From: Hamadaea tsunoensis DSM 44101
GTDB lineage: Bacteria > Actinomycetota > Actinomycetes > Mycobacteriales > Micromonosporaceae
Assembly: GCF_000428945.1 (NCBI RefSeq)
Contig: NZ_AUAX01000041.1
Coordinates: 1-51,620 of the forward strand
DNA length: 51,620 nucleotides
Direction of reading: 5' to 3'
Shown piece by piece: positions 548 to 51,620 of this stretch. Position numbers and translations under genes: made by a program. Every line of letters starts with the position of its first letter. Within the stretch, counting starts at the first letter, position 1. The notes beneath the pieces were generated by a model. That model was given only the letters and a program-made list of their open reading frames with translations, did not search any database and was not told the origin of the DNA.

Positions 548-1147
548 TCAGAGGCTGGGGCGGGTACGCAGGACCGCGAGCAGTCCGGCCTGGACTTCCT
601 CGACCGGGCGTTCCGGCGAGAACAGCAGCCAGTCGAGTGCCACCACCAGCCCGGCCCCGAACAGTGCCGACGCCGAGATGCGGGGATCGAGTTCGGGCGG
701 GAACTCCCCGGACGCCACGCCTGCTTCGAGGACTTCGACGATGACGCTGATGGCCTGTTCGCGTACGAGGAGGATGGTCTGCTGCCATTCGCGGTTGGTA
801 CGCCACATCTCCGCCAGCAGCAGCTGGGCGAAGGCCCGGTAGCGCTGGATGTAGGACAGCTGGGCGCCGATCAGGGCGGCGATCGCCTCGCGGGGCGGCA
901 GTCCTTCGATGGCCGACCGGGATTCGGCGGCGAGCAGCCCGACGCCGTAGCGCAGAAGCTCCTCGTAGAGTGCGGTCTTCGAGGCGAAGTTGTAGAAGAC
1001 CGTGCCCTTGGCGACGCCGGCCCGGTCGGCGATCTCGTCGACCGTGGTGCCGGAGAAGCCCTGCTCCGCGATGAGGGCGACGGCGGCTTCGAAGATCTTC
1101 CGGCGGGTCGCGTCGCGGCGGCGCGTACGCCCGTCGGATTCGGTCAC
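548..1147 (-). CDS. TetR family transcriptional regulator
   Basis: A 199-residue DNA-binding repressor. The N-terminus carries the TetR helix-turn-helix at about residues 34-56 (TVDEIADRAGVAKGTVFYNF), followed by an all-helical ligand/dimerisation domain typical in length for the family. The GTG start at 1147 is chosen because it overlaps the stop of the upstream YhgE-like gene by 4 bp (GTGA), so it is translationally coupled as the last gene of a three-gene minus-strand operon (ATPase, membrane protein, repressor). It probably represses its own operon: a palindrome matching TetR operators lies just upstream of the first gene (4020-4033). The ligand is unknown; a membrane-active compound is a reasonable guess given the transporter partners. 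Confidence 0.9.
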   Translation of the reverse strand: MTESDGRTRRRDATRRKIFEAAVALIAEQGFSGTTVDEIADRAGVAKGTVFYNFASKTALYEELLRYGVGLLAAESRSAIEGLPPREAIAALIGAQLSYIQRYRAFAQLLLAEMWRTNREWQQTILLVREQAISVIVEVLEAGVASGEFPPELDPRISASALFGAGLVVALDWLLFSPERPVEEVQAGLLAVLRTRPSL

Positions 1148-3237
1148 ATGGTCAGGATAGGGTGCAGGTCGGCCGGGCGGAGCCGGCGGGCGCGCCGGGC
1201 GGACAGCGTGGTCAGTGCGAAGGCGCCGAGGGCGAAGCAGGCGAGCACGGCGACGGCCGTCCAGACCACGTCCGCCGAGCCGCCGACGGTCAGCCGGCGC
1301 AGGGCAGCGATCACGTAGGTCATCGGCAGCCACGGGTGCAGCGCCTGGAAGAAGCCCGGCGACGTCTGCACCGGATAGGTGCCGCCCGACGAGGTCAGCT
1401 GCAGCATGAGCAGGGCCAGCGCGACCAGGCGGCCGGGCGTGCCGAGGGCGGCGCCGAGCAGTTGCACGATCGCCGTGAACGCGAGCGCGGTCAGGATCAG
1501 CATCGCGACCGTGCCCGCCGGGGAGATCGGGACGAGACCGAGGGCGTACCGCAGGACGAGGTAGAGGATCACGGCCTGGGCGGTGCCGACCGCGGCCGCC
1601 GGCAGGTATCCGGCCAGCGCCACCCGCCAGGATCGGCCGCCGGCCAGCACGTGCCGCCGGTTCAACGGCTTGAGCAGCATGTACGCGAGCATCGCCCCGA
1701 CCCACAGCGCCAGCGCGATGAAGTAGGGCGCGAAGCCGACGCCGTACGTGGCGGCCGCGTGGCGTACCGAGCGTTGCAGGTCGACGGGGTTGCCGAGCAC
1801 GCCCGCCCGGGCCGCGCGGTCGTCCGGGTCGTAGCCGGGGATCTTCTCCGCGCCGTCGGCCAGCCCGTCGGCGAGTCGCTGCGCGCCGTCGGTCAGCGTG
1901 GCGAGGCCGGTCGCGAGGCTGCGCGTACCGGTGGACAGGCTGCTCAGGCCGCTGTCCAGTTGGCGGGCGCCGGACGCGAGCCGGTAGACGCCGCCGGCCA
2001 GTTGCCGGGCTCCGGTCGCCGCGCTGCGCGTACCGTCGGAAAGTCTCTGGGCTCCGGCGGCGAGCGAGTCGAGGCCGGCGGCGAGCTGATCCACCTGGTC
2101 ACGGGCCTGGGCGACCTGGTCTGCGAGGTGAGGCGCGGCCTGCGCGACGGCGCGCGCCTGCGTCGCCACGGCGCGCAGCGTGGCGACGATCTTGTCCAGA
2201 TCCTGCAGCTGCGCGCGGAGCTGCACCGCTGCCACCACCGCCTCATGCGCCGCGGCCGTGTCCAGATTCTGGGCCTTGAGCTGCGCTTCCACCTCTTGTG
2301 TACGCGCGACCGCCCGATCGGCCAGCGCCGGCAGCTCGCCGAGGTGGTCGGCGATCGTGTCGGCCCCGTCGGCGATGACCGTCGCGGCCCGGGCGATGTC
2401 GTCGGCGTGCTCGCGCAGCGTCGGCTCGACCGCGTCGACGGCCTTGTCCACGGCCCCGGCGAGCTGCCGCCCACCGGCTGCGGCCTGGGCGGTTCCGTCC
2501 GCGAGCTGCGCCGACCCGGCCTCCAGAGTGGACAGACCGGCGGCGAGATCCCGGGCGCCCGAGTTCGCGCCGTTCAGCCCGTTCGCGAGGGTGGCCGCCC
2601 CGGACTGGGCCTGATCGGCGCCATTGGCAAGCTTTCCCGCCCCGGTACGCGCCTGCCCGGCCCCGTCGGCCAGCTGACCCGCCCCGTCGGCGGCCTGCGC
2701 GGTCTGGCCCTTCAGATCGGTGAAGCCGACCAGCATCCGGTCGAAGAAGGTGGCCGACGCGCTGCTCGCGGCGGCCGCCCGGATCTCGGCGAAGGCGCTG
2801 CGCGCGAGCAGTCCCGACAGGTAGTTCGTGGCGTCGTCGCTCTCCACGGTCAGCTGGGCCTGCTCGGCCGCGTGCGCGGGATCGGGGTCGGCCGCGAGGT
2901 CCTTCGAGAAGTCCGCCGGGATCGTGAACACCAGGTGGTACGCGCCGCTGCGCAGACCGGCCTCCGCCTGGGCGGCCGAGGTCGGGACCCAGCCGAAGAC
3001 CTGCCGGTCGATCAGCTTGTCCGCGAGATCGCGTCCGGCGTGGACGGTCGAGCCGTCGCTCGCGGCGGCGTCCTGGTCGGCGAGGACCAGCGCGACCGGG
3101 ATCTTGTTCAGATGGTTGTAGGGATCCCAGAAGGCCGCGAGGTACACGGCACCGTAGAGCAGCGGCACGACGGCGAGTACGCACAGCGCCGCCCGCGTCA
3201 GCCGGTGCCGCAGGAACCGGCGCAGGTCGACAAGCAT
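1144..3237 (-). CDS. YhgE/Pip-family membrane protein (ABC-2-like exporter permease)
   Basis: A 697-residue integral membrane protein of the YhgE/Pip family. One transmembrane helix lies near residues 15-35. A large extracytoplasmic region follows, and about five more helices occupy the last 210 residues, as in ABC-2 permeases. Two long stretches of the outer region consist of degenerate LADGAxxLxxGA-type repeats (about residues 180-265 and 380-460), the coiled-coil-like pattern of this family and of YueB phage receptors. It starts 5 nt after the ATPase stop and overlaps the tetR-like start, so all three form one operon. A drug or lipid export role is inferred from the context, not from a specific motif. 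Confidence 0.85.
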   Translation of the reverse strand: MLVDLRRFLRHRLTRAALCVLAVVPLLYGAVYLAAFWDPYNHLNKIPVALVLADQDAAASDGSTVHAGRDLADKLIDRQVFGWVPTSAAQAEAGLRSGAYHLVFTIPADFSKDLAADPDPAHAAEQAQLTVESDDATNYLSGLLARSAFAEIRAAAASSASATFFDRMLVGFTDLKGQTAQAADGAGQLADGAGQARTGAGKLANGADQAQSGAATLANGLNGANSGARDLAAGLSTLEAGSAQLADGTAQAAAGGRQLAGAVDKAVDAVEPTLREHADDIARAATVIADGADTIADHLGELPALADRAVARTQEVEAQLKAQNLDTAAAHEAVVAAVQLRAQLQDLDKIVATLRAVATQARAVAQAAPHLADQVAQARDQVDQLAAGLDSLAAGAQRLSDGTRSAATGARQLAGGVYRLASGARQLDSGLSSLSTGTRSLATGLATLTDGAQRLADGLADGAEKIPGYDPDDRAARAGVLGNPVDLQRSVRHAAATYGVGFAPYFIALALWVGAMLAYMLLKPLNRRHVLAGGRSWRVALAGYLPAAAVGTAQAVILYLVLRYALGLVPISPAGTVAMLILTALAFTAIVQLLGAALGTPGRLVALALLMLQLTSSGGTYPVQTSPGFFQALHPWLPMTYVIAALRRLTVGGSADVVWTAVAVLACFALGAFALTTLSARRARRLRPADLHPILTM

Positions 3238-3242
3238 GGGGG

Positions 3243-3998
3243 TCAGTTCCCTTCGCGCATGGTCACCACGGCGGCCCGGCCGGCGGCGCTGATCTCCTCG
3301 ATCAGCGTGGCCTGCTCGGCGGGGGTGAGGCCGAGATCGAGATCGTCGATGAGGATCACGCCGGGATCGGAGATCAGGGCGACGTGCAGCATCAGCTCGT
3401 GCCGCTGCAGGGGACTCAGGTCCCGGGCGAGCGTACGCGGATCGAACGGCAGTGCGGCGGCGCGTTCGTCGAGCTCACGACGGGTCCGGCGGAACAGCGG
3501 CCGGAGCAGCCGGAGCCGTTCGGCGAGATGATCCCGCCCGGTCAGCATCGGTTCAGGCTCGTACGCGTTCCGCACCAGCCCCAGCGCGACCCCTCTCGCC
3601 CCCGGGCCCGCCCCTGCCGGGTCCGCCCCCTTGATCCGGTTTGGATCAGGGAGATCACCCGAATCTTGGGCCTTGATCACGTGCGAAACCGTGATCCGAA
3701 CCGGCTCGGCCGGACAGCCCGAGCCGGCACGCGGGTCGGGTGTGGCGCGGGGGTTGGGGGTGGTGCGCGGTCTGCGCGGCTGGGCGTAGTTGCCGGCGAG
3801 GGAGAGCAGCGCGGCCGTACGCCCGCTGTTCGGCGGGCCGGCCAGCGCCACGATCTCGCCGGGGTAGACGGTCACCGGCTCGGAAAGACCGAGCCCGCGG
3901 GCCACCAGGACCGGGGTGGGCGCCGCGGGCTCTTCAGCCGTTCCCGTGTTCTCCGCGTCTTCCGCGATCGCGGGAGCCTGAACCTCCGCAGTGTTCAT
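3243..3998 (-). CDS. Degenerate ABC transporter ATP-binding subunit
   Basis: A 251-residue nucleotide-binding-domain protein and first gene of the operon with the YhgE-like protein and TetR. Recognisable parts are a Walker A-like loop at 53-61 (GPPNSGRTA), an ABC signature-like LSPLQ at 194-198 and a Walker B-like VILIDD at 214-219. The Walker A lysine is replaced by Arg, the expected inner Gly by Asn, and the catalytic Glu after Walker B by Asp. The region where the Q-loop should be (about residues 75-135) is low-complexity, Pro/Arg-rich sequence, and residues 100-124 are encoded by a dispersed palindromic repeat (3629-3700). ATP hydrolysis is therefore doubtful. The ATG at 3998 has a GGGGAG ribosome binding site. 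Confidence 0.75.
   Translation of the reverse strand: MNTAEVQAPAIAEDAENTGTAEEPAAPTPVLVARGLGLSEPVTVYPGEIVALAGPPNSGRTAALLSLAGNYAQPRRPRTTPNPRATPDPRAGSGCPAEPVRITVSHVIKAQDSGDLPDPNRIKGADPAGAGPGARGVALGLVRNAYEPEPMLTGRDHLAERLRLLRPLFRRTRRELDERAAALPFDPRTLARDLSPLQRHELMLHVALISDPGVILIDDLDLGLTPAEQATLIEEISAAGRAAVVTMREGN
3629..3700. repeat. Dispersed palindromic repeat within a coding region
   Basis: Two adjoining palindromes. 3629-3670 contains GATCCGGTTTGGATCAGGGA between arms resembling CCCAAGATYYGG and CCGAATCTTGGG. 3675-3696 is a perfect hairpin, GATCACG, 8-nt loop, CGTGATC. The 20-nt core recurs with one base changed at 50068-50087. The whole block is read in frame by the ABC ATPase gene on the minus strand. 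Confidence 0.75.
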
Positions 3999-4019
3999 GT
4001 CGGCTCCCCAGAAAACTGA

Positions 4020-4033
4020 ACTGACCGGTCGGT
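4020..4033. promoter_or_regulatory. Candidate TetR operator upstream of the ABC operon
   Basis: ACTGACCGGTCGGT is a 14-bp palindrome with one mismatch (perfect core GACCGGTC at 4023-4030), 22 nt upstream of the first gene of the operon whose last gene encodes a TetR repressor. Autorepression is inferred. The 12-mer ACCGGTCGGTAC (4024-4035) also occurs upstream of the thiolase gene. Confidence 0.5.
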
Positions 4034-4150
4034 ACAGAAACTTACGCGGACCGGCCGTCGCGCGCCAGCCGCGTACCGGTGACCTGCCTCACGCCGCGTC
4101 GTACCAGAACTGGACAGTCGCCGGGTCGCCCGAACCGCCCCTCATCGGGG

Positions 4151-4852
4151 ATGCTGTACCGCATGCTTGGCATCGTGCGGCGCCGTCCACTGGTGACCCT
4201 GATCGCGCTCGTCGTCCTCGTGGGCGTCGCGTACGGCGGGGGTTCGCTGATCGCGTACCTGCAGAAGCATCCACGGACGACACCACTGGCCTCGGAGATG
4301 TCGACCGGCCCGTCGGCCCCGGCGCAGAGCCCGTCCCCGTCGCCCTCGCCGCTGCCCTCCGGCTACCTGCTGCTGCCCGACCTGAGCAAGCGCCGCGCGC
4401 CCGACGCCCAGTCGATGCTGTCGCTGCTCGGCTTCAAGGTGAACCTCCAGGACAGCAGCGGCGCCGGCCGCCTCATCGTCGACCCCGCCAACTGGATCGT
4501 CGACGGGCAGGACCCGCCGGCCGACAGTGCCGTGGCGATCAAGTCACCGGTCACCCTCAAGGTGCACAAGCCGACCGACGGCAAGGGCGACCAGAAGTTC
4601 AGCCTCGGCGTGATGCCCAACGTGGTCTGCAAGAACCTGCAGGACGCGTACGACGCGCTGCACAAGGCGACCTACTTCAACATCGGGTCCAAGGACGCGT
4701 CCGGCGCGAACCGGCTCCAGCTGCTGACCGCGGACTGGATCGTCGTCGGGCAGTCCGAGACGGCCGGCAAGAAGCCGGGCCTGCTCACGCACATCACGCT
4801 GACCGTCGTGAAATACAACGAATCCACCGGAGACTCCGGCTGCGAAAGCTGA
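4151..4852 (+). CDS. Membrane-anchored protein with two PASTA-like domains
   Basis: About 233 residues from the ATG at 4151 (an in-frame ATG at 4163 is possible). A short cytoplasmic start is followed by one transmembrane helix (LVTLIALVVLVGVAYGGGSLIAY split over about residues 14-36), a Ser/Pro-rich linker, then two similar domains of about 65 residues. Each has the PASTA pattern of a conserved hydrophobic start (LLLPDLSKRRAPDA; VMPNVVCKNLQDA) and a later WIVDGQ/WIVVGQ segment. PASTA domains bind peptidoglycan fragments or beta-lactams in kinases and penicillin-binding proteins; here no kinase domain is attached. The product probably faces the cell wall. Its 3' end overlaps the convergent HEAT-repeat gene by 59 bp. 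Confidence 0.75.
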   Translation: MLYRMLGIVRRRPLVTLIALVVLVGVAYGGGSLIAYLQKHPRTTPLASEMSTGPSAPAQSPSPSPSPLPSGYLLLPDLSKRRAPDAQSMLSLLGFKVNLQDSSGAGRLIVDPANWIVDGQDPPADSAVAIKSPVTLKVHKPTDGKGDQKFSLGVMPNVVCKNLQDAYDALHKATYFNIGSKDASGANRLQLLTADWIVVGQSETAGKKPGLLTHITLTVVKYNESTGDSGCES

Positions 4853-6215
4853 CCCGCACGGGCGGGGGCTCGGCCTTCCCGAGGCGGGCGTGGAAGCGCA
4901 GCAGCCGCGTCCGCTCCGGTCCGAGCCAGCGCTCCGCGCCGTCGAGGAGTTCGGCCGTGCCTTCCACCGGCTTTCCGGCCGGTAGGTAGGCCGAGGCCGC
5001 CCACCGGTCCAGCCAGTCGACGACATCCCGTCGCGCCTTCGGCCCGAGCGCGGGATCATCGGCCGTACGCAACGCGACGAGCAGGGCCGGCCACGTGCCG
5101 CGGGCCGCTTCCAGGCGATAGCCGGCGAGGCGTACGTGCGGCGGCCGCCGGTCGCCCAGCAGATCGCGGAGAAGTGCCGGGGACAGCTCGGGCGCGTGCC
5201 TGAGCAGTGCCCGGGTGGCCTGGCGCACCACCGCGGGTTCGGAGTCGGTCAGCAACGCCAGGAAGTCGTCGACCCGGCCGGCATCCAACTGCCGCAGCGC
5301 TCGGACGGCGGCGGACCGCAGGGCCGCGCGCCGATGCGTCAGGTACGCGACGAGCAGCCCCGCGTCGGCGGCACCCCCGGTCTCGGCCAGCCCGCGAAGG
5401 ACGGCGGTACGCGGATCCGGCCCGAGCAGCCGTCGGTACCGTGCGGCCGGGTCCTCGCCGGCTCCACGGAGGATCGTCTGGGCCGTCTGGCGTACGCCGG
5501 AGTTGCGATCGGTCAGCGCGGCCGTGGCGAGTGCGACGTCACCGGTACGCGCCAGCACCGACCGTCGCACGTGGACACTGCGGTTGACGGCCAGGCCGAG
5601 CAGGTCGGCGGGCTCGACGGCGGCGACGGCCAGCGCGCGTACCTGGCCGTCGGGGTGGTCACGGACGGCGGTGAGCAACTCGTCCCGGCTCAACCGGCCA
5701 CGTTCGATCCGCGTCGCGTACGCGATGCGGCGCGACCGCTGACCGGCGGCCGTCAACGCGGCGACCGGCACCTCGGCCAGGGCCTCCCGGACGCGGGGCG
5801 GCAACCACCGGCCCTCGTGCCGCTGTTCCAGCCCGAAGACGAGGTCGGCGCTCGGCAGCCAGATCTCCGCCGGCCCCCCGAGCAGCACGGCGTACGCGGC
5901 CCGGGCGCGCTCGCGTACGGCGTGGACCCAGTCCGCGGCGCGGAGCGCGAGCACGCAGGCTCCCAGGGCGGACGGCCGCCCGGCGAAGTACGCGACGGCG
6001 CGCTCCCGCACGAATCCGTCGGCGAGCACGGACGCGATCAGTGCCCGGAACTCGTCGGTGAGCTCCGGCTCGACCTGCCACGGCCAGGCCGCCCGCAACC
6101 GGTCGGCGAGGATCGGCCACTGCCGCGGGGCGAGGGAGACCAGTGCGGCGGTCAGCGCCGCCCGCTCCCGCGGATCAGGGCCGACGTCCCGCACCCGGTA
6201 CGCGAGTTCGTCCAT
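4794..6215 (-). CDS. HEAT-repeat protein of unknown function
   Basis: A 473-residue, Ala/Leu/Arg-rich, all-helical protein. The middle and C-terminal halves show repeating paired helices of HEAT type (for example VNRSVHVRRSVLARTG, LTDRNSGVRQTAQTIL, THRRAALRSAAVRALRQLDA, LTDSEPAVVRQATRALLRHA), each with the conserved VR or VRxxA position. HEAT repeats form superhelical scaffolds for protein binding. No enzyme domain, signal peptide or membrane helix is seen. The last 20 codons overlap the PASTA-like gene on the other strand. The ATG at 6215 begins MDELAYRVRDVG. Confidence 0.75.
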   Translation of the reverse strand: MDELAYRVRDVGPDPRERAALTAALVSLAPRQWPILADRLRAAWPWQVEPELTDEFRALIASVLADGFVRERAVAYFAGRPSALGACVLALRAADWVHAVRERARAAYAVLLGGPAEIWLPSADLVFGLEQRHEGRWLPPRVREALAEVPVAALTAAGQRSRRIAYATRIERGRLSRDELLTAVRDHPDGQVRALAVAAVEPADLLGLAVNRSVHVRRSVLARTGDVALATAALTDRNSGVRQTAQTILRGAGEDPAARYRRLLGPDPRTAVLRGLAETGGAADAGLLVAYLTHRRAALRSAAVRALRQLDAGRVDDFLALLTDSEPAVVRQATRALLRHAPELSPALLRDLLGDRRPPHVRLAGYRLEAARGTWPALLVALRTADDPALGPKARRDVVDWLDRWAASAYLPAGKPVEGTAELLDGAERWLGPERTRLLRFHARLGKAEPPPVRVSFRSRSLRWIRCISRRSA

Positions 6216-49116: not shown

Positions 49117-49275
49117 CGCCTCTCCCCGTTCGCTGAACATGTGATCAGAGTGCGCGCGTACGCGTGAAGTGACGGTGAGTTGGATTCACGTCGTGTGTGG
49201 CGTGGATTACGCTGGGCCGGGCATCGCGGGTCCTGCCGGTCCACGCAGGACCGGGAGCCGGGGGAGGAAGTCAGC

Positions 49276-50049
49276 GTGTTCGAGCGGCTGAAGCAGGTCT
49301 TCGGCGCCGGTGGGCCGAGTGTCGCGACCACATTGGAGACTCCCCGGGTGCTGCCCGGCGGGGACGTCGTCGGCACCATCCACGTCGTCGGGGGTACGCG
49401 TCCGGTCTCCATCAGCCGGATCGTGCTGGGACTGTCCACGATGGTCTGCGTCGACGGGGACACCCAGCTCGACGAGGTCGTGTTCGCCCGGCAGGCGGCC
49501 ACCGACTCGTTCGGCCTGGCGCCGGGCGAGGAGCGGGACTTCGACTTCGAGTTCCTCGTCCCCTACGAGGTCCCGCTGACGATCGTGGCCGGTCGCCGGC
49601 TGGAGGGCATCCACCTCGGCGTACGCACGGAGCTGGAGGTGGCCCGCGCGTTCGACCGGTCCGACCTCGACCCCATCGAGACCGAGCCGCTGCCGGCGCA
49701 GGCCGTCATCGTCAAAGCGCTGCTGGATCTCGGCTTCCGCATCGTGCGCTCGGACGTGGAGCACGGCGTCCTGCGCGGGGTGAGCCAGACGCTGCCGTTC
49801 TACCAGGAGATCGAGTTCCACCCCGCCGCCAAGTACGCGGCCGCGATCAACCAGCTCGAGGTGACGTTCGTGACGGCGCCGACGGCCACCCAGGTCGTGC
49901 TGGAACTCGACCGGCGCGGCGGCGTGATCTCGGGACGCGACGTGTTCGGCCGGTTCGTGGTGGACCACTCGCGGATCGCCGACACGGACTGGAAGGGCCA
50001 GCTCGACGACTGGATCATGGAATCCTGCCGCCGCGTAGGCATCTTCTGA
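49276..50049 (+). CDS. Spo0M-family protein
   Basis: A 257-residue arrestin-like protein of the Spo0M family. The first half (VFERLKQVFGAGGPSVATTLETPRVLPGGDVVGTIHVVGG) is typical, and EERDFDFEFLVPYEVPLTIVAG and ELEVARAFDRSDLDPIETEPLP follow. B. subtilis Spo0M influences sporulation and the cytoskeleton; in actinomycetes the role is not established. The GTG at 49276 has a GGAGG-type site. It lies next to sigB (divergent) and just left of an insertion sequence. Confidence 0.9.
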   Translation: MFERLKQVFGAGGPSVATTLETPRVLPGGDVVGTIHVVGGTRPVSISRIVLGLSTMVCVDGDTQLDEVVFARQAATDSFGLAPGEERDFDFEFLVPYEVPLTIVAGRRLEGIHLGVRTELEVARAFDRSDLDPIETEPLPAQAVIVKALLDLGFRIVRSDVEHGVLRGVSQTLPFYQEIEFHPAAKYAAAINQLEVTFVTAPTATQVVLELDRRGGVISGRDVFGRFVVDHSRIADTDWKGQLDDWIMESCRRVGIF

Positions 50050-50062
50050 CCCCTCCCCCGGC

Positions 50063-50087
50063 CCCAAGATCTGGTTTGGATCAGGGA
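50063..50087. repeat. Half of the dispersed palindromic repeat, cut by the insertion sequence
   Basis: CCCAAGATCTGG then TTTGGATCAGGGA. The 20 nt at 50068-50087 equal 3633-3652 except one base. The insertion sequence begins at about 50086 and hides the second half of the unit, which would lie beyond the window. Confidence 0.7.
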
Positions 50088-50095
50088 CTCGGGTT

Positions 50096-51505
50096 TTAAG
50101 GTCGGATTAGTTCTTTGGGGATCTTGACTTTGGTTGTGCGGGTGGGTTCGTAGCGGGGTGCGGGTTCGCTGGTGCGGCCTTTGGGTCGTCCGGGTCCGGG
50201 TTTGGTGGGTTTTGGCCATCTAGCTGGTGTGTCGATTGTGGCTAGCAGGTGGGTGAAACCTTGCCGGACCCGGCCCGGGGTCATTTGCTGGCTGGTGAGG
50301 GGTTTCTGCCAGGGCAGGCGGTGGTCGGCGACGAGGGGGCGGGCCAGGCGTAGCTGGGTGGCGGTGATGGCGGTGAGTTGGCTGAACCGGTCGGCTTGTT
50401 GTGGGTGGCGTAGTCGTGGGGTGGCCCAGCCGAGGTTTTGGCGGGCGAAGCGGAAGAAGTGTTCGACGTCGAACCGGCGTAGGTAGGCGCGCCAGCAGCG
50501 GTCGGGGTCGAAGGTGTCGGCGGGGCCGTTGAACCAGAGCCAGATCGGGCCGGGTTGGCGGTGGCGGGGTGTCTTGTCGACGGTGAGCCGGAGGATGGTG
50601 GCTTCGATGATGCTGGGCCGCCCGTCGGGGTCGCGGTAGTGGGTTTGGGTTTCGGGGTGTAGTTGGTGCCATGCGGTGACGTGGACGTTTCCGTAGACCG
50701 GGTCGTGCAGGGCGAGTTCGTGGTCGGGTGGGGTGTGGCTTTCGGGGTGGGCGAAGTGGAATCGTCGTCCGTGTCGGCGGGGTGTGCCGGGGCCGCGTTT
50801 GCCGGTCGGTGGTTGGGGGCGGGTCCACATGACCCGGTCGTTGCGCAGCCGGATCAGGGTTTGCACGGGTTGGTCGGCGAGTTCGACGCCCAGGGTGACC
50901 GCGTCGTAGCCGGCGTCGCAGACGAACAGTGGCAGGGGTTGCGACCGGGGGTGCTCGAGCAGGGGAAGCAGGAGGAGGATCTGCCCGATCGCGGTTTCGG
51001 TGCAGGTCTGGGAGGTGTTCACCCGGGAGACGTCCAGGGGCGCGACCCAGCTACCGGGTTCGGTCGACAGGTTCACCAGCCATGAGTATGACCATCCCGC
51101 GGTGATCGGTTTCCCGTTGGTGATCTGTGCTTGGGCGTGGTTGTACTTGTGCAGGCCACGTTCGGGTGAGCATTGCGCGGCCGGACGTGCCCACAGGGTG
51201 GTGTCGACGGCGAACGTCGGTTCCCATTCGGCGGGCCGGAACCCGGCCAGGGTCTCGCGCAGCATGCCGGTGTCGATCGCTCCGTCGGCGATCGCCCGGT
51301 AGGCGCTGCCGTGCCCGCGCCGTGCGCCCGGCGCGAGCGTCAGATGCGCCAGGCCGTCCACCGCGACCGCCGACGCTTGCGCGTCGACCAGGTCGAACAA
51401 TGCGTCCGGCCAACGGTCCAGGCAGTCGTACACCTGATGGCGGAACTCTCGCAGCGCCTGCTGCGCGCCGGCCAACTCATGCGCGACACTGCTGGAAGTG
51501 GTCAT
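50096..51505 (-). CDS. DDE-type transposase (NF041680-like)
   Basis: A 469-residue transposase. The first acidic residue is probably in FAVDTTLWARP, the second in LFVCDAGYDAVTLG, and the third is the Glu in DVEHFFRFARQNLGWATPRLRHP; these fit a DDE core of the type annotated as NF041680. A basic Pro/Lys tail (PGPGRPKGRTSE) may bind DNA. The ATG at 51505 has a GGAGG site. The start codon lies in a 15-bp stem with upstream sequence (51495-51562). The family name is from memory and not checked. Confidence 0.85.
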   Translation of the reverse strand: MTTSSSVAHELAGAQQALREFRHQVYDCLDRWPDALFDLVDAQASAVAVDGLAHLTLAPGARRGHGSAYRAIADGAIDTGMLRETLAGFRPAEWEPTFAVDTTLWARPAAQCSPERGLHKYNHAQAQITNGKPITAGWSYSWLVNLSTEPGSWVAPLDVSRVNTSQTCTETAIGQILLLLPLLEHPRSQPLPLFVCDAGYDAVTLGVELADQPVQTLIRLRNDRVMWTRPQPPTGKRGPGTPRRHGRRFHFAHPESHTPPDHELALHDPVYGNVHVTAWHQLHPETQTHYRDPDGRPSIIEATILRLTVDKTPRHRQPGPIWLWFNGPADTFDPDRCWRAYLRRFDVEHFFRFARQNLGWATPRLRHPQQADRFSQLTAITATQLRLARPLVADHRLPWQKPLTSQQMTPGRVRQGFTHLLATIDTPARWPKPTKPGPGRPKGRTSEPAPRYEPTRTTKVKIPKELIRP

Positions 51506-51562
51506 CGCGACCTCCGAGAGGGTTTGTCAGGCCTTTACTCGAAGATCCGCGATGACCACTTC
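51495..51562 (-). promoter_or_regulatory. Hairpin that includes the transposase start codon
   Basis: GAAGTGGTCATCGCG (51495-51509) and CGCGATGACCACTTC (51548-51562) form a perfect 15-bp stem with a 38-nt loop. On the transcript the ATG at 51505-51503 is inside the stem and the GGAGG site is in the loop. Read-through transcripts from outside would fold this way and be poorly translated. Confidence 0.6.
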
Positions 51563-51620
51563 TATGTCACTACCCGACAAGAAGGACAAACAGCACTTCA
51601 CGTTAAAACCCGAGTCAGGG

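Follow-up and report, generated by a model that had tools for sequence, protein, structure and literature searches.

Does a palindromic repeat lying in frame within an ABC ATPase gene of the actinomycete Hamadaea tsunoensis DSM 44101 belong to a family that makes a habit of invading genes, or is this gene an exceptional resting place for a repeat that normally resides elsewhere? The DNA analysed here, referred to as the window, is a stretch of 51,620 nucleotides (contig NZ_AUAX01000041.1). The features relevant to the question are the following.

1144..3237, minus strand: partner ABC-2 type permease (PF12698, E 6.8e-23).
3243..3998, minus strand: ABC-ATPase-like protein of 251 aa with a degenerate Walker A motif (GPPNSGRT), carrying the element in frame (from the ORF, Pfam and orthologues).
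3591..3782, minus strand: ATPase residues 73-136, unmatched in same-genus orthologues, which have 9-10 residues there (from two-block matches and alignments).
3628..3712, plus strand: full-length 85-bp palindromic element (from an 82.2-bit model match, alignment with 73 other copies, and the arms).

The first-pass annotation had proposed that a dispersed palindromic repeat became coding sequence at this place, and this is borne out: the ORF remains open throughout the element. The same annotation described two adjoining palindromes; the in-frame palindrome is indeed there, but it is a single element, an interrupted and imperfect inverted repeat of 85 nt, the arms of which (3633-3651 and 3689-3707) are 84% complementary. 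It matches positions 1-85 of a profile model of the family, with its 'A' half, GGGAGATCACCCGAATC, on the left and the variable half on the right. The copy is strongly diverged, its best-strand score of 82.2 bits being the third lowest among 75 copies and its dyad containing 19 mismatches out of 42, compared with 5-15 in the other untruncated copies compared. A scan of positions 3400-3900 against Rfam returned a sole match, to sul1, which was discarded at 22.7 bits (gathering score 36.2).

In order to find out how often the repeat occurs, the genome was searched with the 16-mer arm CGGTTTGGATCAGGGA, allowing at most one mismatch. This gave 246 matches (135 forward and 111 reverse) versus none for the reversed pattern in the same genome, and the repeat is therefore not a product of chance. 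The core likewise has many occurrences, so that the possibility of its being found nowhere else in the genome can be set aside. A weight-matrix scan collected at least 208 distinct copies, a lower bound that includes two copies cut by an insertion sequence (IS) and one with an indel (L135:3798); the total estimated from the arm ratio (246 x 160/191) is about 206. The best 150 genome matches to the profile model, which was built from 19 copies, all have E-values of 2.1e-23 or better, often on both strands at one place. Over 851,620 bases, comprising the window and 40 stretches of 20 kb picked around strong copies, the model found 75 copies with scores down to 53.8 bits, and the next match scored 20.6 bits. 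All but one of the 75 are exactly 85 nt long, the exception having 84 nt; 74 were used in the alignment and the background set, a copy at a locus edge (L108:1) being excluded.

Orienting 156 distinct copies gave the majority consensus CCCAAGATCCCGTTTGGATCAGGGAAATCACCCGAATCTTGGGCCAAGATTACGTGGGAAACCCTGATCCAAACGGGATCTTGGG, with the ends CCCAAGATC and GATCTTGGG. Pairing was analysed in 157 of 160 copies (156 distinct), excluding the two IS-cut copies (L173 and L175) and the one with the indel. The paired halves can form a larger hairpin, as the outer-stem pairs covary: covariation at pairs 4/82, 5/81 and 11/75 was equalled in 0 of 300 shuffles and that at 13/73 in 1 of 300, whereas columns 25-34 are mostly unpaired, pairing in just 44% of cells. 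Comparison of the two halves within each of 74 copies showed fewer mismatches in the outer arms (columns 6-21) than between shuffled halves (0.69 versus 0.98, 0 of 2000 shuffles) and more in the inner 17 nt (6.72 versus 4.97, 0 of 5000 shuffles). We read this plan as an outer stem, an apparently open inner segment and a core stem, with one half invariant and the other variable. Dissimilar inner halves would also follow from an asymmetric parent and by themselves are no proof of selection for a loop; certain copies of the sister genome G003 are perfect palindromes in the inner region. Close to copies, at distances of up to 150 nt, the end motifs of the element are about ten times as frequent (26 in 47,608 bp) as in the background, which is mostly coding DNA (42 in 764,702 bp), and 19 of these 26 lie 10-30 nt outside a copy (for example, at L053 and L104:12230), which suggests local growth of the repeats.

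The genomic placement of the copies was determined with a codon-usage gene caller trained on this genome. Among the at least 208 copies, 108 lie between convergent genes, 70 between tandem and 14 between divergent genes; in seven cases a gene 3' end falls inside the element, six copies are at locus edges and three are within genes. The caller missed the ATPase gene, and its copy was moved by hand from the divergent to the in-gene class, leaving 13 divergent and giving four in-gene copies. A neighbouring gene presents its 3' end to 178 of the 191 intergenic copies (192 before this correction), at a median distance of 25.5 bp, and 58 of the 70 copies in tandem pairs are closer to the end of the upstream gene. 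The convergent share, 108 of 191, greatly exceeds the 20-21% expected (binomial P of 2.6e-27 or less) from a background of 715 adjacent gene pairs (148 convergent, 426 tandem and 141 divergent), and the test is conservative, since background stretches chosen around copies over-represent convergent pairs. In G003, the 19 top-scoring loci, called with codon scores trained on the H. tsunoensis genome, comprise eight convergent, ten tandem, no divergent and one overlapping context (L143 and L156 were skipped as the same places as L136 and L145).

An intrinsic terminator consists of a hairpin followed by a U-run, and the element departs from this description: there is no T-run after the hairpin (the 10 nt outside 160 copies contain 11% T), and a simple terminator scan of positions 2500-5000 found none. 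Actinomycete terminators can lack a U-run. A role of the element at 3' ends, as a terminator or stabilising hairpin, appears to us evenly balanced, judged from its sequence and position. Seven genes read into a copy and stop there (L122:17949, L130:10001, L188:3918, L216:2501, L222:2501, L248:1996 and L269:1999); five of their protein tails have the form DQG(N/D)HPNL and two end in FGSG(I/F)RT.

Copies inside genes number four among the at least 208, compared with about 177 expected from the coding fraction. With most copies sitting at gene 3' ends, invasion of genes is thus the exception. Apart from the ATPase, the genes concerned encode the following proteins (protein coordinates).

AtuA protein (L106): PF07287 at 3-415 and PF23544 at 496-589, with the element peptide SQDPVWIRDPHVIMGQDSGDFPDPNGILG between the domains.
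Molybdopterin oxidoreductase (L042): PF00174 at 289-442; in-gene element copy.
ABC exporter (L041): PF00005 at 356-498, with the element ahead of the ATPase domain; on our reading of the sequence, a membrane part would precede this domain.

All four copies are read on one strand and in one frame, encoding peptides of the form QDPVWIR..HVIMGQDSGDFPDPNGIL. This frame is one of the two to four stop-free frames among the six of each copy (two in 20, three in 101 and four in 39 of 160 copies), and by simple arithmetic the chance of all four sharing it is about 1 in 27. In a comparison covering the ATPase, AtuA and the oxidoreductase, homologues without the stretch were found for all three. AtuA homologues were matched in 9 of 20 relatives and in none of three congeners; in six (G012, G031, G028, G025, G006 and G032) the match consists of two blocks separated by 9-60 nt, where the H. 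tsunoensis protein has 46-62 residues, in G005 it is split over contigs, and in two of the nine (G004 and G026) it runs in a single piece across the linker. The two sides of the oxidoreductase match G002, G001, G012 and contig C4 of G009 with 0-15 nt between them, where the H. tsunoensis protein has 54-72 residues; contig C50 of G009 and G027 gave single-piece matches. These one-piece homologues of the two proteins indicate that long linkers without the element also occur. Peptide pieces shared with the insert were absent from all six frames of the ATPase, AtuA and oxidoreductase loci of 28 relatives (a set outside which contig C50 of G009 lies), so that the peptide is not a general property of the relatives covered. 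The inserts are larger than the element, because low-complexity flanks rich in P, A and G come along with it.

The ATPase gene illustrates this enlargement. Its stop codon is followed after 5 bp by the start of the permease gene, and the protein is 51-58% identical to three same-genus orthologues (G001, G002 and G003), none of which has the element. All three align up to residue 72/73 and again from residue 136/137, with 27-30 nt between the blocks. The unmatched stretch, 3591..3782, consists of the element and P/A/G/R-rich low-complexity flanks, and its mean codon score is -0.33, compared with 0.16 and 0.23 on either side. The earlier figure of about 25 added residues is too low: the element encodes about 28 (residues about 96-124), and the net excess over the three orthologues is about 54. 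By analogy with ABC folds in general, the insert would lie in a loop. The PF00005 fragment detected at residues 42-72 scores 20.7 bits, under the cut-off of 25. In this ATPase family (L062-L064) the Walker A lysine is replaced by arginine (GSGRT), and the window protein additionally has asparagine for glycine. With such a changed motif the protein may not hydrolyse ATP normally, and as further segments found in its orthologues are missing as well, the gene may be decaying. We read the ATPase copy as a rare tolerated insertion, a survivor enlarged by its low-complexity flanks.

A second site in the window connects the element with an insertion sequence.

50063..50087, plus strand: columns 1-25 of the element, a second copy cut by the IS, 13 bp past the stop of ORF 49180-50049.
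50081..50087, plus strand: TCAGGGA, left copy of a likely IS target duplication.
50088..51614, minus strand: insertion sequence of 1527 nt with ends CTCGGGTTTTAA and TTAAAACCCGAG; the outer part, CTCGGGTTTTAA, is an inverted repeat common to both.
50096-51505, within the IS (minus strand): transposase ORF of 469 aa (NF041680, PF13546 DDE_5).

The first-pass annotation had noted the same 20-nt core at 50068-50087. The resemblance is real but short of identity (19 of 20 positions, GATCTGG for GATCCGG, with an exact 15-mer in common), and the site is an occurrence of the element whose nature had been misjudged, namely a fragment cut by the IS. The transposase belongs to the NF041680 family of putative transposases (453.6 bits, cut-off 440) and also matches PF13546 (DDE_5). 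The genome contains four copies of the IS (L169-L172), all at contig ends (C31, C37, C38 and C47). All four lie inside an element, at one identical point, for which the chance is about 1e-11. Both junctions are seen on C37 and C38, where GGATCAGGG(A/T) is followed by the IS and then by TCAGGG up to the contig end, and a single junction on C31 and C47; in the window the right target copy begins at 51615, with 6 nt (TCAGGG) readable before the window and the contig end. Such junctions would fit duplication of the 7-nt target TCAGGGW, whose copy on the far side is readable over 6 nt. The IS was considered as the parent of the element and rejected, as its ends (CTCGGGTTTTAA) are unlike those of the element, which is instead its target. 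Relatives of the IS (E-value of 1e-80 or better) are present in 10 of 120 other genomes. Those about 44% identical insert elsewhere, the copies read in G136 (8 of 9; L291, L297, L301, L304 and L306-L309) and G135 (3 of 3; L287, L294 and L299) abutting CTAG/CTA-like sites with unrelated flanks. Target choice therefore varies within the IS family, and targeting of the palindrome is seen only for the four identical copies described here.

How does the element compare with known repeats? REPs have been described downstream of genes, in the gaps between ORFs that converge or run in one direction, and sometimes within ORFs or providing a stop codon (PMC3733652, in part). The element resembles REP/BIME sequences in its high copy number, its hairpin-forming paired halves and its location mostly downstream of genes. 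It differs in consisting of a single unit of 85 bp, one half of which is invariant and the other variable, in having a GTAG/CGTC tag within 8 nt of an element end in only 1 of the 208 collected copies, and in lacking a detectable Y1 (RAYT) transposase, PF01797 having no match in the H. tsunoensis genome or in G001-G003. The same search does give matches in 3 of the 31 genomes covered and in 5 of 14 controls, and a Y1 mobiliser was rejected given that PF01797 has no match in the genus. For want of tag and Y1 transposase the element is not filed as a classical REP, nor as an RPE or MITE. The text of PMC3733652 contains no mention of 'actino', 'Streptomyces' or 'Frankia'. As for the IS, several are known that use REPs as exclusive targets (ISPsy8, ISPa11, ISPpu9, ISPpu10, ISRm19, ISRm22, IS1397 and IS621; PMC1525189, in part); the IS of H. 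tsunoensis is like them in that every copy breaks the repeat at one point, and unlike them in being a DDE element of the NF041680 family in an actinomycete. The text of that source names the families IS3, IS110, IS4, IS256 and IS5, and in it 'IS701' and 'actinobacter' are not mentioned.

We consider it likely that the element represents a new, untagged REP/BIME-like family with rare coding insertions. The comparison drawn in the first-pass annotation was with the Rickettsia palindromic elements (RPEs), repeats of about 150 bp of which, in R. conorii, nearly half are in ORFs (PMC10969869, in part). The element is like these in that a palindromic repeat stands in frame in four unrelated genes with a common peptide, in one frame and orientation, that homologues lack the insert in three of the four cases, and that two or three of the inserts lie between domains; it is unlike them in length (85 bp), in phylum and in the share of copies within genes. 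In-frame entry, orthologues without the insert and a shared peptide thus stand, whereas gene invasion as a general habit does not: with 4 copies in genes among at least 208, against the roughly 177 given by the coding fraction and the near half reported for R. conorii, it is quite improbable that the element is a selfish palindrome of the RPE kind, whose main biology is insertion into ORFs. That it is a MITE moved by a DDE transposase, perhaps by that of the NF041680-family IS of this genome, is unlikely as well. The inverted-repeat form, the nearly constant length and the many similar copies would suit a MITE, but the IS has different ends and uses the element as its target, and in 203 of the 208 copies (four scoring under 80 and one at an edge excluded) target duplications of 3-9 nt, sought at fixed boundaries, do not rise above shuffled pairings.

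A somewhat less unlikely explanation is that the element is a binding site of a nucleoid or replication protein that reads the asymmetric unpaired centre, the hairpin being a by-product. Such a site might look like this, with one half nearly invariant and a variable second half that for the most part lacks complementarity at columns 25-34; the position of copies by gene 3' ends and the covariation of the outer stem, which favours pairing, speak against it. Decay of the ATPase gene, with an accidental in-frame state of its copy, is a real though doubtful possibility, and is compatible with the REP-like explanation of the element. The in-frame state could be accidental because two to four of the six frames of every copy are free of stops, and the missing segments and altered Walker A motif fit decay; against it stand the gene-like codon usage on both sides of the insert, the 251 codons without a stop, the intact partner permease and the use of the same frame by the three other in-gene copies.

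If the element is indeed an untagged REP-like family, it would be transcribed at the ends of messages and fold into a long hairpin, which would bound or protect transcript 3' ends from both sides. Insertions into genes would mostly be purged, and the survivors would be those with a stop-free frame and a hydrophilic, linker-like peptide, placed in inter-domain linkers or a loop. In the literature consulted, palindromes that enter genes in frame are described from Rickettsia and, in other groups, from tagged REPs. An actinomycete of high GC content that has at least 208 copies, four coding insertions in the same frame and homologues lacking them provides a clean case of palindromes adding residues to proteins. 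The element is also natural material for 3'-end formation between convergent actinomycete genes, and the same system provides an IS with apparently site-specific landing. We found no published account of the element in the open-licence literature.

The model matched all four genomes of the genus examined, that of H. tsunoensis included, and 9 of 150 genomes (4 of 44 genera) of the family Micromonosporaceae, a search in which filters lose weak matches. By eye, the ATPase proteins of G001 and G002 are the same as those of the Hamadaea sp. MAGs Bin8.36 and Bin2.24. The congeners carry diverged relatives of the element; the copies of G003 have in common GGATCAGGG - CGAATCTTGG..CCAAGATTCG - CCTGATCC but different outer arms. 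Tentatively, there might be a genus-wide class, extending to a sister genus, of untagged REP-like repeats in actinomycetes without a Y1 transposase, in which the wording differs between species and the plan is the same, namely an outer stem, an open inner segment and a core stem; such repeats would act from either side on the 3' ends of transcripts, serve as an IS landing site and repeatedly lend proteins one preferred frame as a linker peptide. In other genera of the family, at L165 (G012) and L166-L168 (genus g17), there are long palindromes with a different wording, such as GTGCAGTTTCGGGGAAA..., which are possibly parallel families.
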